Assembly (NCBI RefSeq): GCF_000374125.1
Contig: NZ_KB893625.1
Location: forward strand, 944,091-983,123
Source: Niabella aurantiaca DSM 17617
GTDB taxonomy: Bacteria > Bacteroidota > Bacteroidia > Chitinophagales > Chitinophagaceae
DNA: 39,033 bases
Direction: 5' to 3'
Shown: positions 32,066-38,317 of the stretch, piece after piece
How the letters are laid out: every line of letters begins with the position of its first letter
Numbering within the stretch: position 1 is the first letter of the stretch
The notes under the pieces: model-generated
Told to the model about the DNA's origin: nothing
The model's database searches: none
Seen by the model: the letters and a program-made list of their open reading frames with translations, nothing else
Program-made: the position numbers and the translations under genes

Positions 32066-32436
32066 TCCGTTCCATGCGGGCAATTGCCGGAGTTCCTCCC
32101 CAATAATGCCGTAGCGCCAATGTCACCCTTGTGGCTGTGTGCGGGGTTTGTAATAATTGATGGACTTTTGATACAGCGCTATAAGTTCGGCCCATACATG
32201 GATGGCAATGGCCTTTTTGTAAACGTTCTCATAATCTTGCGCAGACCTCCAGGTCTGTACAGGAGTGTTGCTTAGCCTCAGGTTGTTTTGATATCCGGCT
32301 CGGGGTATGGAAATTCATGCAGGCCATGAGCGCCCGCGAAAAGCACGACTGAGTGCAGCATATACAGGTACTGATTGCGGTGCAGGAAATGTACCTTGCT
32401 GGCACTCAACCCATTATTTGTGCATTAAAGCCCGGA
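32066..32436. other. intergenic region between the arabinose operon and the defence genes; possible gene remnant
   Basis: No complete gene. On the minus strand, 32123-32314 is open for about 63 codons without a start and contains NTPVQTWRSAQDYENVYKKA and KSINYYKPRTQPQ, which look protein-like. I do not recognise the family. It may be the tail of a deleted gene at the edge of the acquired region. AGACCT-CC-AGGTCT near 32245-32260 is a short palindrome. Confidence 0.35.
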
Positions 32437-33393
32437 TTATATCGGTTTTTTGTACGGTTCTTTCTCAATTATTGCGGCTTTGATTTTTTCTCTTAAATAA
32501 TTTCTAAAGTCAATCTCTCCCTCTATTACTTTGACAAACTCTTCAAGATCAAACATGACCATTAGTGCGCTCTTTACCAATGCCTCTTTGGCAGCAGTTA
32601 TTCCAGAAGCCGAATATCCCGAGGCCGAAATAAAAATACCATGAGCGTTGGTTCTGTGATAAATTCTTCCTAAATGTGAAAAAATATCATCGCTTCCTAT
32701 GGAATCCTTCTTCCATTTCATTTCCACCAAAAAAATCTGATTGTCAATTTCAATTACTCCGTCTAGTTGTTCAATTATTCCGTCTCCAGGCTCTCCCAAT
32801 CGTTTGAAATCATCCTTTATTAAAATCTCAAATACTTTGAAATATCCATTTAACACGAATTCTAATTTTTTTCCCCGTTTTTGAGCATTGTTTTCGTTAA
32901 AGAGAGAGAATAATTCATTTTTTATTTTGCTTAATTGTTCTGTTTTTTTTTGAATTTCTTCTATTTTCTTATGATGCTCTTTTCTCCTGAGATTTTGTTC
33001 ATTTTCTCTTTCTTGTTTCATTCTTGTAAAAGAATCTTTTACATTAATCACTTTTTGGATTTCAGAAACAAGTCCTTTAGCCTTCAATTGATCGCTTTCC
33101 CAACAAGTGGAAAAAGCCTCAAATTCTGTTATTCGTTTGAGTATTTCTCTTCGTTGACGTAAGTATTTATCACTGTTTTGGTTAATTCTTTCAAGGATGA
33201 CTCGGCAAATTTCATACTTTGATATTGCTTCAGGGTTTGATAAAACTTTAGCTGTTATATCACTATAAAGAGCTTCCTCTACACCAGCCCCATTGAAGAA
33301 TGTTAAAACGGATTTTTTTGATCTATTAAGCAATGGAATAGTTTGAACAACTAAGTCAAATAAGTCAGGTGGGTAGTGATAAATATCATTCAT
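32437..33393 (-). CDS. Mrr-like PD-(D/E)XK restriction endonuclease
   Basis: This 318-aa protein has three parts. Residues 1-120 form a conserved helical domain, with TIPLLNRSKKSVLTFFNGAGV and VINVKDSFTRMKQERE, a pattern I recall from widespread endonucleases. Residues 121-170 form a charged coiled coil. About 172-290 form the nuclease core: KKLEFVLNGYF (Glu178), LDGVIEI (Asp211) and FLVEMKW (Glu224, Lys226), giving the D...ExK metal site. SGYSASGITAA resembles the Mrr fold. Such proteins cut DNA, often modified DNA. The gene follows the RT-nitrilase on the same strand after 171 bases and has the same AT-rich base use. No methyltransferase is nearby, so a stand-alone type IV-like role or a partnership with the RT is possible. 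Confidence 0.85.
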   Translation of the reverse strand: MNDIYHYPPDLFDLVVQTIPLLNRSKKSVLTFFNGAGVEEALYSDITAKVLSNPEAISKYEICRVILERINQNSDKYLRQRREILKRITEFEAFSTCWESDQLKAKGLVSEIQKVINVKDSFTRMKQERENEQNLRRKEHHKKIEEIQKKTEQLSKIKNELFSLFNENNAQKRGKKLEFVLNGYFKVFEILIKDDFKRLGEPGDGIIEQLDGVIEIDNQIFLVEMKWKKDSIGSDDIFSHLGRIYHRTNAHGIFISASGYSASGITAAKEALVKSALMVMFDLEEFVKVIEGEIDFRNYLREKIKAAIIEKEPYKKPI

Positions 33394-33564
33394 TAGCGAT
33401 TGGTTTTTCTTTTGATACTAATAATGAAGCAACTCAATACTTTGAGAGTAGCATGAGAGCCGTTTTTTCTTGAATCCTTGTGTCGGTATGACTTTTTCTA
33501 AGCATTGGCTTAATGTTTTTTTCTTTTAGAAAGTTCATACTGTTCGGCGTTTAAGGCCTTTGAC
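33394..33564 (-). other. 171-base spacer between the RT-nitrilase and nuclease genes
   Basis: Read on the minus strand it is AT-rich with no strong hairpin or promoter. A 17-codon open segment ending KRKKH directly follows the RT stop in another frame. It could hold a second promoter or a small RNA, but nothing distinct is seen. Confidence 0.25.
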
Positions 33565-36525
33565 TTATTTTCTCCTTGAATTAAGTATTTTGAAATTAGG
33601 GGGTGTAGGCTTAAATATTTTGTTCCTTTTCTGTAACTGATATTCTAATTTTTGAAACTCTCTCAGAGCTGCTATATCTATTGTCCCCGTAATCAATGAA
33701 ACATTGTTTCCGCCCTTTATTTTTAAAATATCCTTTCTATACGTTTCCGCCGGCTGCGTAATCCTGCTGTCTCCATAATGTGAGGAGTTGACTTGAACAA
33801 CATAACTATGTATATCTCGGGCAACTGATTCAATAATATTGGAAAAGTAGTTTACATCAGGATTGTGTTCTACTGTAGCAATAAAGTCAACGTGACCTCG
33901 AAATATTGCCCTTTTGCGGATGTCGGCCAGTTCAAAGCAATTAAATATGCTAAAGTGTATGTCATTCCATACATATAATCTTAATTGTTCATTTTCCATT
34001 TCTTTGAAAGGTATCTTTATTTTTCGGCCCTGTATTTCTTCAATTTCTTCAGGAGAGTAGTCCTTTTTTAGTCTAAAATCAATTAACGCATTCTGATATC
34101 TGTTGTAAGTAAATGGTAGTATTGTGGCGACATAGTTTAGCGCAAATCCTTCATTATTTACTATATGCTCTACTCCACAGCAAATCGCTATATTGTTTCG
34201 TTTGGAAAAAGACGCTAACATAGGAAGCCATTGAAACGGAATAGAAATCTCTGGGAAAATAATAATATCACACTTTTGAGTATGCAATGATTCATTAAGT
34301 AATTGATTGATTTCATCTAATCGTCTAAAGGAAAGGTTGGGTTTGCCCAGTAAAGAAGATTTGGAATTTTCAAAATCAATAACTGCATTAACCAACCCGA
34401 TCTTTAATTTGTCCTTGACTTTGCCTGCTTTAATTTCTATCTTTTTCCCTTCATATTTTCTATCATTGACTTTTGCAAAAGGTTCTTCTTTTGGGTAAAA
34501 TTTTCGATATGCATTTTCCGCATTTTGTGATAACTTATTCATGTCGATATATTTTCCGAATAAATAGTTATACTGGCTACTAAAATATTTCTTATTTAGT
34601 TCGCTTGGTTTAAACCAACTTTTCATTCCATAAAATAAGCATACTTCATGATAGTGAATGAAACGCGGGGAGTACTCGATTTTTCTTTTTGAAAAAGCAA
34701 ATTTTGTTTTATCTGGTTTAAGTTGCTTGTTTAGGTAGTTGAACCCCTCCTCTTGCACGCAATAATTCAGTAATGGATAGTAGAGATAGTTGTGTCTGAA
34801 AAGGTTCGAACCAATTAAAGCCTTAGCTTGCTTTAGAACCAGCTCTATAGTAATGAACTCAAAGAAAAACGTGGTTACATTACTATAGCGGCTGTCTCGT
34901 AAACTGTCTATTATTGCATCATTAAAGAATGCGATATTTAGCGATGCTGCCATAGAGAAGCAATTGGTTAAATGGGTTAGCAGGCTTGCTTGAATATCCA
35001 TGTATTCTGGTGCAGTAATTTTGCGTTCTCTGATTTTGATTCTAAAAATGTTTTCTATCTGATCTTTTGCAAATTTTATTAACTCGTCTTTCGCTGCGTT
35101 AACCACATAGAATGTAAATACTTTTTCCCAAAGTGCATTTAATTCTAAACTTCGTTTTCCTGAAAAAAAAGTAACAATCTTATCGTTAATTTCTTCAAAT
35201 CGTTCTTTGGATAGTTTTTCGGCGGCTACTGTTGTTGAAATAAGTTTTGCAAGATGCTTAGATGCTCCTAATTTATCAGCATTAAACCCATCTATTGATC
35301 TAAGTTTATTAACAGTGTCGGAATAGGAGATTTTGTAAGAAGCATTCTCAAAACTTTCGAAAATATTCTTCGATTCAGGTTGGAATTTAAACTCGCTGCT
35401 GTTCTTTTTAATCTCCTTTTCAAACTCGTCTAGTAAATTGGCGCTTTCGCTTGCTAATAAGTGGTATAACTTTACCTTTTTTATCTGAAAGGGTAAGGCA
35501 TTTTTTCCTATTTTAATATGGTATTCTGCATTAGCTCCATTTTTCTCTACAGCGACACCAGGATCTCTTCCCCAGATCCCATTATCAACCAGGAATTGGT
35601 CAATAAATGAGTTGACAGGTGACGGAGACTCCGGAAATATTTTTGGATTTGATACGACAAACATAATGTCATCAACATATCGTCCATAAAATTCGGGTTT
35701 TACTTTTTGAGTTATAGCATCATCAAAGTCCTTCAAATAATAATTAGCGAGTATGTTAGAAGATATTAGGCCAATCGGTATTATTCGTTTACCTTTCTGT
35801 TCTATTAAGTTTTCATCTTCTAGTAATTTTGAAAATGCTATATGAACTCCCTGAAGAAAATTATTGAGCCAATTAAATTCGGGATCAATATCTCTTATGC
35901 TGGCAAAATCAAGGTCAATAGAGTTGTAGTAGCTTTTTAAGTCTAAGCTTAAAATAGCTACATCAAGATTGAGTTGATGTAGCCCCTTTGCTTTTTTTAT
36001 AGCATCATCGCGCCAGTTATTATAGCTAATAAAGTATTTTCTAAAAAGTTTGATTGAATTTTCTTCGAATTGATTATCATAATTCCTCAGCAATCTGTTG
36101 CCATAACAAGGGAAACTTAGTTTTTCGTCGAGTTTGTGTCCGATTTTCATAATCCATAAAATCGAGACAATATGGATTTCAATGGGACACAAAATGAATG
36201 GTGTTTCTTTTTCTATTACATATTCCCGAAGCTTATTGGCATTAGAGAAGTAAAATGCTTCATCTGCTAATAGCCCTTTATTGTCTTCAAAGTTTTTGGG
36301 CATCAAAGATGCTCTTATTGATTTATAATGCCTAAATATTCCCGTTTGGGGATTTTGTGCATAGGCGTTGATTTCATCTACCAACTTTTCCAACTTTTTA
36401 GCGATGTTTGGCCCTTCATATTCAGCAAGCGAAATACGCAATGGCAAAGAAAAATTTTCATGATACACATAGGATTTCAACTTCTTGTAGGCAGTTTTTA
36501 CCTCAGTAATATTAGTTAAGGTCAT
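33565..36525 (-). CDS. reverse transcriptase-nitrilase fusion (DRT1-like anti-phage protein)
   Basis: This 986-aa cytoplasmic protein has two enzyme domains. In the RT part (about 90-360), LSLDLKSYYNSID (192-204) carries the first metal Asp195, IGLISSNILANYYL (251-264) is the motif-B region, and GRYVDDIMFV (281-290) holds the YVDD catalytic box. A helical linker follows (about 360-700). The C-terminal nitrilase domain (about 705-945) has FPEI with Glu759, RLKKDYSPEE with Lys820/Lys821 and FNCFELADI with Cys863. The Glu-Lys-Cys triad therefore appears intact. RT-nitrilase fusions are the defence-associated RTs named DRT type 1, in the UG (unknown group) RT class. It probably makes DNA, and perhaps a nucleotide-like signal, during phage infection. 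Base use is much more AT-rich than the flanking genes. Its substrate and template are unknown. Confidence 0.93.
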   Translation of the reverse strand: MTLTNITEVKTAYKKLKSYVYHENFSLPLRISLAEYEGPNIAKKLEKLVDEINAYAQNPQTGIFRHYKSIRASLMPKNFEDNKGLLADEAFYFSNANKLREYVIEKETPFILCPIEIHIVSILWIMKIGHKLDEKLSFPCYGNRLLRNYDNQFEENSIKLFRKYFISYNNWRDDAIKKAKGLHQLNLDVAILSLDLKSYYNSIDLDFASIRDIDPEFNWLNNFLQGVHIAFSKLLEDENLIEQKGKRIIPIGLISSNILANYYLKDFDDAITQKVKPEFYGRYVDDIMFVVSNPKIFPESPSPVNSFIDQFLVDNGIWGRDPGVAVEKNGANAEYHIKIGKNALPFQIKKVKLYHLLASESANLLDEFEKEIKKNSSEFKFQPESKNIFESFENASYKISYSDTVNKLRSIDGFNADKLGASKHLAKLISTTVAAEKLSKERFEEINDKIVTFFSGKRSLELNALWEKVFTFYVVNAAKDELIKFAKDQIENIFRIKIRERKITAPEYMDIQASLLTHLTNCFSMAASLNIAFFNDAIIDSLRDSRYSNVTTFFFEFITIELVLKQAKALIGSNLFRHNYLYYPLLNYCVQEEGFNYLNKQLKPDKTKFAFSKRKIEYSPRFIHYHEVCLFYGMKSWFKPSELNKKYFSSQYNYLFGKYIDMNKLSQNAENAYRKFYPKEEPFAKVNDRKYEGKKIEIKAGKVKDKLKIGLVNAVIDFENSKSSLLGKPNLSFRRLDEINQLLNESLHTQKCDIIIFPEISIPFQWLPMLASFSKRNNIAICCGVEHIVNNEGFALNYVATILPFTYNRYQNALIDFRLKKDYSPEEIEEIQGRKIKIPFKEMENEQLRLYVWNDIHFSIFNCFELADIRKRAIFRGHVDFIATVEHNPDVNYFSNIIESVARDIHSYVVQVNSSHYGDSRITQPAETYRKDILKIKGGNNVSLITGTIDIAALREFQKLEYQLQKRNKIFKPTPPNFKILNSRRK

Positions 36526-36542
36526 ACTTGAAATTATTGATT

Positions 36543-36568
36543 AAAAAAAGCCACTCAGGCAGTGGCTT
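36543..36568 (-). terminator. strong intrinsic terminator hairpin between the XRE gene and the RT gene
   Basis: On the minus strand AAGCCACT pairs with AGTGGCTT across a 5-base loop, followed directly by a seven-base T-run. It would end the XRE transcript only 17 bases before the RT start codon, so the RT must have its own promoter or be expressed through regulated read-through. Confidence 0.75.
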
Positions 36569-36598
36569 GATTTGTGATAAAGATAATTGATAAATAAT

Positions 36599-37000
36599 TT
36601 ATTTTTTTTCTATTAATTTCTTTAACTCGACCATCATCTCATCCTTCTCCTTCAGCATCCTTTCATATAATGCCATCTTTTCCTCATGAAGTTTTAATAC
36701 GGCGTCAACAGGGTTAAAAACGGGGTTGTGTTGAACAACAGCAGCTCCATCATGAAAGGTACTTGAAATGACAGTGATCGCCTGTTCCTCGTCAAAATTC
36801 TGAAATGCCTCAACCGGTATTTTCAACACAGCGGAAATTTGTTGCAGCAGGGGCGTATCAATCGTTTCTTTGGCTTCCAGCAGGGATATTTTCTTTTGGT
36901 TCCAGTCATCGCCCAGTTCATAAGCCAGGGTTTCCTGTTTAATGCCCAGCATTTCGCGAAAGCGCTTTACATTCCGGCCTTCGTGTATCTTTTTCTCCAT
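36599..37000 (-). CDS. XRE-family helix-turn-helix regulator
   Basis: This protein has about 133 aa from the ATG at 37000 (MEKKIHEGRNVKRFRE). The longer start at 37018 adds six residues and is less typical. Residues about 8-62 are the HTH (MLGIKQETLAYELGDDWNQKKISLLEAK). The C-terminal third is a charged amphipathic helix, probably a dimerising coiled coil (EEKMALYERMLKEKDEMMVELKK). Such proteins are common in Bacteroidota, often beside mobile or toxin-like genes. It is divergent from the 208-aa gene, and the repeats at 37056-37100 are a suitable operator. It probably represses both directions. Linkage to the RT gene is by position only, with a terminator between. Confidence 0.88.
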   Translation of the reverse strand: MEKKIHEGRNVKRFREMLGIKQETLAYELGDDWNQKKISLLEAKETIDTPLLQQISAVLKIPVEAFQNFDEEQAITVISSTFHDGAAVVQHNPVFNPVDAVLKLHEEKMALYERMLKEKDEMMVELKKLIEKK

Positions 37001-37055
37001 AATTGCTGTATTTATCAATGGTTCAAATTTAGGGCTTTATAAGCAGTCAGCCACT

Positions 37056-37100
37056 GGTATAAAGATAGCTAAAATATCCCGCAAGCGGTATAAAATATCC
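37056..37100. promoter_or_regulatory. operator-like repeats between divergent XRE and 208-aa genes
   Basis: GGTATAAA occurs at 37056-37063 and 37087-37094. AAAATATCC occurs at 37071-37079 and 37092-37100, exactly 21 bases apart. Such phased repeats in a divergent promoter are a good candidate XRE-binding site. Confidence 0.45.
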
Positions 37101-38089: not shown

Positions 38090-38154
38090 CCAAAGGCCTG
38101 CTTTGTCCTGCCGGGGCATTTGCATAGCAAAATTAGCAGGGTGATGACATCATA
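38090..38154. other. short gap after the SymE-like gene
   Basis: No gene or clear terminator is seen. Confidence 0.3.
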
Positions 38155-38253
38155 CTTTCGTCACCCTGAGCGCAACAAAGTGAAGCCGAAGGGGCTCCCG
38201 GTTTTCGGGCGTCCGGTATCACAGGGGTGCTTCGGCTGCGCTCAGCAGGACGG
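38155..38253. repeat. dispersed CACCCTGAGCGCAACAAAG repeat with inverted partner
   Basis: The 34 bases at 38155-38188 are repeated exactly at 39000-39033. A related inverted copy (CTTCGGCTGCGCTCAGCAGG) lies at about 38230-38250, so a hairpin can form. The CACCCTGAGCGC core is a common dispersed intergenic repeat in bacteria. Confidence 0.65.
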
Positions 38254-38317
38254 TAGTATAATTGATATCTAATTTACAGCGGATATGAGAGGTTGATCAA
38301 TCCATTACGTTTCTTTT

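Follow-up and report, generated by a model that had tools for sequence, protein, structure and literature searches.

Class 3 UG/Abi reverse transcriptases (RTs) have been defined as multidomain proteins that combine an RT with a nitrilase or phosphohydrolase domain (PMC13275509), and a nitrilase fusion has been noted for RT classes 1 and 5 (PMC8934634). The DNA made by DRT1 is carried by Ser402, the priming loop being unresolved in the cryo-EM map, and the exchange S402A abolishes immunity (PMC13275509). The 19 C-terminal residues of DRT1 are exchanged between tetramers and lie over the pocket of the nitrilase. Immunity is lost or strongly reduced in each of the variants S402A, C1116A, D324N/D325N, K1219A, and A1223F, the effect of K1219A and A1223F equalling that of removing the tail (PMC13275509).

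The window analyzed here, a stretch of 39,033 nucleotides from Niabella aurantiaca DSM 17617, contains on its minus strand an uninterrupted open reading frame of 986 aa (33565-36525), which a first-pass annotation had read as an intact RT-nitrilase fusion of DRT1 type. Our analysis upheld the intact fusion and its two complete active sites, with D195, YVDD 283-286, E759, K820, and C863 all in place, but assigned the protein to the UG5-nitrilase family by score and by tree. We found no functional study under the UG5 name in the openly licensed literature. The statement of the same annotation that the role of the nitrilase and the product of the RT are poorly understood is partly outdated for DRT1 (PMC13275509).

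Family assignment and relatives

RT_UG5-nitrilase (PDLC03780) was the best PADLOC profile, matching the full length of the window protein (residues 4-985) with 826.9 bits and an E-value of 6.6e-249. The Drt1a profiles PDLC03745 and PDLC02171 reached only 120.3 and 56.8 bits, whereas 1316.8 and 1889.6 bits were obtained with Drt1a profiles for the UG1 protein P0010. Identity with DRT1 was rejected on these scores and on the tree placement outside the UG1 clade. A search for Drt1a in 295 genomes of the class at E 1e-60 gave no match, but is uninformative since the 14 control genomes gave none either. From Pfam only RVT_1 (residues 177-302, 7.2e-10) exceeded the cut-off, and no NCBIfam model exceeded its own. 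Nothing pointed to a retron or group II intron RT: retron_St85_RT reached 40 bits at a cut-off of 235, and the Pfam listing contained no group II maturase domain. Compared to the UG5-nitrilase RTs (PDLC03780/PDLC02995), the window protein displays the same full-length match, domain order, and invariant residues, and no defining difference. It is a plain member of this known but under-studied family and, judged from its combination of RT and nitrilase domains, a class 3 UG/Abi RT.

The top match of the PDB sequence search was DRT1 (9YFD, 3.6e-15, best via the nitrilase), which a three-sequence profile matched at 2.3e-23. As 9YFD was absent among the 50 matches listed in the fold searches (library up to April 2026), DRT1 was compared by sequence only. 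DRT1 (PDB 9YFD, PMC13275509) shares the RT with a C-terminal nitrilase, the catalytic tetrad, the lid motif, and a serine in the post-RT linker. It differs in length (1229 aa versus 986 aa), in the low Drt1a score, in its separate clade, and in the register of the priming serine, which is off by one. RT_UG5_small, accompanied by a separate nitrilase, is a related RT with the same Ser377, and the nitrilase encoded by its next gene carries the lid tail; RT and nitrilase are two proteins there and one in the window protein. A UG6 RT with a separate nitrilase (G131; P0007, P0008) resembles our locus in having a nitrilase next door, but belongs to another RT family and was matched only through the nitrilase.

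Relatives of the UG5 type are by no means rare. At least 80 loci, all matching at 2e-60 or better, were obtained when genome contigs were scanned with a profile; of the 584 pattern matches listed, 476 encode some relative, although those beyond the 80 may be other RTs. From viral contigs 80 loci were kept, of which L137-L140 were taken as true relatives because of their long matches, whereas in the remaining 76 the similarity is limited to a smaller stretch, in most cases of the RT. Among 50,697 phage records there was no match to a fragment of the DRT1 nitrilase. The closest relative among the matches listed is that of Pedobacter sp. ASV28 with 75% identity, followed by Flavobacterium jejuense and Pontibacter. 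Further relatives bear titles such as Clostridia, Halanaerobiales, Fusobacteriaceae, Grimontia, Pseudomonas, and methanogens, and many of them are metagenome bins. In the class of the host, matches were found in 5 out of 395 sampled genomes, its own included, one of them (G131) via a UG6-associated nitrilase. The GC content is 0.33-0.34 in the AT-rich insert and 0.45-0.56 elsewhere in the window. This low GC content and the patchy spread in the class fit horizontal transfer, in agreement with the acquired region proposed earlier. DNA similarity to the Pedobacter copy covers only 33589-36511 and ends within 25 bp of the gene ends; the Pedobacter gene is flanked by a 193-aa ORF without Pfam family and by 3HCDH and RuvB genes, with gyrA about 3.5 kb upstream.

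The tree was built from 56 RT domains, including 24 of the 66 fused and 6 of the 15 split-type RTs as well as 20 of the 76 viral-contig RTs, which were the first ones passing a length filter. Drt8_L237 and P0007 form long branches, and the letter composition of three rows was flagged. The window protein (P0001) joins the Pedobacter protein (L057) at 100/97 within a 30-row UG5 group, the support of which (94/89) falls slightly short of the starred threshold. A separate clade (99/95) comprises four UG1 proteins and leaves the window protein outside, and the twenty viral-contig RTs form another clade. Within UG5, fused and split forms are intermingled, with five changes needed for the fused label and four for the split label. 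Thus, nitrilase and RT have parted or joined several times while staying neighbours, and the persistence of the nitrilase gene beside the RT despite these changes suggests that both function as a pair. Four of the 84 loci (L090, L110, L113, L132) fitted no class, and the structure alignment was made without 5 of the 63 fused loci (non-ATG start or N) and, on account of their source, without P0004 and P0009. At one locus in Ochrovirga pacifica (L127, 7983-12099) the UG5 matches fall into three frames, and residues 134 and 156 are separated by about 1.1 kb of other DNA; this gene is perhaps interrupted by an insertion.

Active sites, linker serine and C-terminal tail

The RT catalytic residues D195 (35941-35943) and YVDD 283-286 (35668-35679), spanning 35668-35943 on the minus strand, are invariant in the alignments of all 66 fused sequences including the window protein. 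They are also kept in 16 out of 16 rows of the split-form alignment, consisting of the 15 split-type RTs and the window protein. The nitrilase (carbon-nitrogen hydrolase) domain comprises residues 702-980 (33586-34422, minus strand). Its catalytic residues E759 (34249-34251), K820 (34066-34068), E827 (34045-34047), and C863 (33937-33939), spanning 33937-34251 on the same strand, were each found in 66 of 66 fused sequences, again with the window protein included. The counterpart of C863 in the alignment with UG1 is the cysteine of the GAICYD stretch, which is C1116 in DRT1. Of the lysines 820-821 formerly placed in a catalytic triad, K820 is invariant and K821 is not, and E827 is a fourth invariant residue besides E759, K820, and C863.

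A nitrilase domain could also serve solely as an oligomerization scaffold, with the RT-made DNA as the effector, and the nitrilase domains of DRT1 do form all intra-tetramer contacts (PMC13275509). Such a role is improbable, since a scaffold would not need the four catalytic residues that are conserved in every fused sequence and since C1116A abolishes defence in DRT1 (PMC13275509).

Ser377 (35395-35397, minus strand) is a candidate DNA-priming residue in the otherwise variable post-RT linker. This position is a serine in 64 of the 66 fused sequences, the exceptions being Thr and Asn, in 54 out of 56 fused sequences thinned to less than 60% identity, and in all 15 split-type RTs. In the thinned set its conservation is second only to that of K350 within residues 293-701, the mean conservation of residues 357-411 being 44%. 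No other Ser, Thr, or Tyr between residues 284 and 822 reaches a conservation of 75%. In an hhalign comparison of RT plus linker, Ser377 was placed opposite residue 401, just before Ser402 of DRT1, at a point where the register is weak; for the linker alone the probability was only 10-21%, and the register around Ser377/Ser402 was uncertain and one residue off. We infer that Ser377 and Ser402 may be the same site one residue apart, and Ser377 may carry the DNA made by the RT.

In AbiK, priming takes place on a tyrosine. Likewise, a class 3 mechanism might operate here with another priming residue, such as a tyrosine, while the conservation of Ser377 would reflect a role in folding at the end of the linker helix. 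Ser377 is located near the end of a predicted helix (residues 363-380), where a conserved serine could be structural, and the fold search also finds AbiA. Moreover, S402 is stated to be not conserved in other class 3 DRTs (PMC13275509). However, Ser377 is far more conserved than its surroundings, lies in a stretch predicted at low confidence (residues 371-380, mean pLDDT 62), and coincides in position with the priming loop of DRT1. Between residues 140 and 800, all further hydroxyl residues with a conservation of at least 75% (Y164, Y168, S255, S256, Y280, Y283) are situated in the RT domain. Priming on a different residue hence appears unlikely, and Ser377 is retained as the candidate.

The tail of the protein carries the motif K972-x-x-P975-P976 (33598-33612, minus strand), a candidate lid over the nitrilase. 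In the hhalign alignment, F-K972-x-x-P975-P976-x-F of the UG5 tail is paired with K-T-x-P-A-G at the end of UG1 proteins, so that K972 stands at DRT1 K1219 and P976 at A1223 (9YFD numbers by offset). The likeness to DRT1 is at the motif level only, the second position being P in UG5 and A in UG1. K972 is conserved in 63, P975 in 61, and P976 in 51 of the 66 fused sequences. K..P[PA] occurs in the last 70 residues of 56 out of 66 proteins compared to 7 out of 864 other 70-aa windows. Among the ten tails without it, L074 ends at the contig end, five (L135, L139, L140, P0004, P0009) have K-x-x-P followed by I, E, or D, and in four (L096, L100, L103, L117) the motif is fully missing. Separately encoded nitrilases possess the lid tail in 14 of 16 rows (e.g. 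FKPTPPDF); of the remaining rows, one is truncated and one is a fragment of 19 aa. In sequence terms, Ser377 and the C-terminal motif suggest a mechanism of the DRT1 kind.

The AT-rich slot, its neighbours and upstream signals

The RT-nitrilase gene shares an AT-rich cargo slot (32443-36589) with a gene for a 318-aa Mrr-type restriction endonuclease (32437-33393, minus strand; Pfam Mrr_cat 3e-5, PADLOC mREase_IV 7e-7). The slot is adjoined by an HTH (XRE-like) regulator gene (36599-37018, minus strand; likely start ATG at 37000), supported by PADLOC HTH_VI at 2e-7 and by Pfam HTH_3 at only 0.012. Three congeners carry the HTH gene and the sequence after it with 84-89% identity. Their similarity ends at or just inside the HTH gene, at 36589 (G403), 36590 (G406), and 36746 (G395), and beyond it each congener has different AT-rich ORFs. 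On the far side of the slot only G406 matches in the DNA compared (32260-32442, 72%). At 38144-38266 the window contains a repeat of about 100-120 bp with many copies in its own genome and in congeners.

The first-pass annotation had noted an unusual neighbour and, with it, a possible variant system. In a multi-gene system of this kind, HTH regulator, RT-nitrilase, and Mrr nuclease would act together. All three genes are indeed encoded on one strand, and the two AT-rich genes occupy one slot. However, no Mrr relative was found in the DNA around the 84 RT-nitrilase homologue loci, and an HTH gene was near only one of them (L079), some loci being short. An 84%-identical Mrr relative in genome G310 adjoins Cas9-like and Cas1 genes, with no RT-nitrilase among the ORFs of the 14 kb examined around it, and its DNA similarity of 76% ends at the gene boundaries. 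Furthermore, a terminator separates the HTH and RT genes. Joint action of the three is thus the least probable of the alternatives considered here, and the Mrr-like gene is disfavoured as a partner. Its absence at the relatives, the G310 context, and similarity stopping at gene ends indicate that the insert most likely consists of two independent modules. The Mrr-like gene probably is a module independent of the RT-nitrilase, which appears to be a single-gene unit, and the HTH regulator is context rather than part of it. A drt1b gene lies beside about 18% of the drt1 genes (PMC13275509), whereas the next gene of our RT-nitrilase is the Mrr-like one.

The HTH family was found in 14 of the 17 genomes of the genus, with up to 13 matches in one, some of them partial. 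The copies examined (window 36599-37018, L020-L022, L027-L056, L222-L241) are often followed by AT-rich variable defence cargo. Several adjoin Gabija, Ssp, DRT8, SIR2, or restriction genes; products encoded beside them include type I and cytosine methyltransferases, SspC, GajA, Drt8, SIR2, AbiH, and several PADLOC candidates. Taking one hand-picked cargo protein per slot, 12 out of 20 matched PADLOC at E 1e-10 compared to at most 4 out of 20 controls, which were the largest ORFs at 20 other places in genomes of the genus, with four family matches of one member each. For L222, L224, L231, and L235 the nearer ORF was taken instead of the largest and all four matched; without them, 8 of 16 cargo proteins match. 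The 20 slots exclude the window, L020, L227, and L238, the cargo of the latter two resembling that of L020 and L222; the L020 cargo matches PDC-M11A at 2.9e-215. Among all downstream ORFs, 82 proteins match 635 PADLOC families at 1e-5, many being redundant models, whereas 7 families were matched by 37 upstream ORFs, most of which are smaller and which come from a shorter stretch. AT-rich cargo is absent in three slots (L225, L229, L232), and the contrast to the other flank is slight in L231 and L236. In total, 24 HTH slots were inspected out of 66 HTH matches listed.

Reused regulators of defence islands are known elsewhere, e.g. RptR in Gammaproteobacteria (PMC12255303), and the HTH family may serve the defence modules of the genus as a reusable header or landing site. 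The richness of the slots in defence genes supports a defence role of the RT-nitrilase, by company only; from its family and neighbourhood it is likely a phage-defence protein. Behind another HTH copy of a congener, a DRT8-type RT is encoded (L237, 3049-4641, plus strand; PADLOC 1.8e-161), so that more than one type of defence RT is accommodated by slots of this kind. An HTH gene with 55% identity (L079, 14668-15090, minus strand) is located about 3.8 kb from another UG5 RT-nitrilase in Chryseobacterium hagamense.

A perfect intrinsic-terminator hairpin with a T run (36548-36568, minus strand) stops 22 bp short of the RT start codon, so that a promoter would scarcely fit in between. Expression of the RT may depend on read-through from upstream or be attenuated. 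The hairpin could instead belong to an adjacent non-coding RNA templating the RT, as in DRT2 and DRT9. This is very improbable, since it has the shape of an ordinary terminator, any such hairpin occurs in only 6 of 78 upstream stretches including that of the window, no Rfam model matched in the window at gathering scores, and the DNA similarity to the Pedobacter gene is confined to the gene. An upstream RNA template was rejected on the lack of an Rfam match and the rarity of the hairpin. The sequence TATCTTTAT is located at 37059-37067 (minus strand) before the HTH start and again at 36577-36585 (minus strand) between the HTH stop and the RT start. There are 3 matches in the window versus 0.31 expected, the third inside the RT gene, although local AT-richness makes chance matches more likely. 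Upstream of 30 aligned HTH copies the sequence is partly conserved, and it possibly represents an operator.

Proposed mode of action

What can be read from the sequence is the family, the intact active sites, the near-invariant Ser377, the lid motif, the lack of a constant partner gene, and the acquired slot. We consider it reasonably probable that the window protein is a single-gene anti-phage protein of the UG5-nitrilase family that works like DRT1, with Ser377-primed DNA, assembly, and a lidded nitrilase. The RT domain would add dNTPs onto its own Ser377 without a template, and the resulting short single-stranded DNA tag would lead to assembly, bringing the nitrilase domains into an active oligomer. 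The K-x-x-P-P tail of one subunit would form a closed lid over the C863 pocket of the next. Phage replication activity would act on the DNA tag and release the lid, and the freed nitrilase would either hydrolyse an essential cell metabolite or make a toxic product. Thereby the cell would stop before the phage matures, i.e. undergo abortive infection. In the split relatives, such a tag would govern a nitrilase encoded by a gene of its own. The same filament as in DRT1 need not form, because UG5 is about 240 residues shorter. Purified class 3 'DRT5S' and 'DRT5L' are reported to make DNA without a template, and covalent DNA linkage is reported for 'DRT5' (PMC13275509); as names, these would suit the small and large UG5 forms.

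More tentatively, with chances a little short of even, all nitrilase-type class 3 RTs might share one device, in which a single post-RT serine with a random DNA tag arms the nitrilase and locks it via a K-x-x-P-[AP] lid. UG5 would then represent a second lineage that has diverged deeply, and the tag would act in trans on the separate nitrilase subunit of split UG5 systems. If this is true, the published non-conservation of the DRT1 priming serine would be a matter of alignment. The candidate priming serine and the lid motif turn the question of whether UG5 works like DRT1 into two point mutants, and with the split forms nature already provides a means of uncoupling the DNA tag from the nitrilase. 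Because the catalytic residues are shared, a nitrilase substrate found for one family would make the other family the obvious next test.
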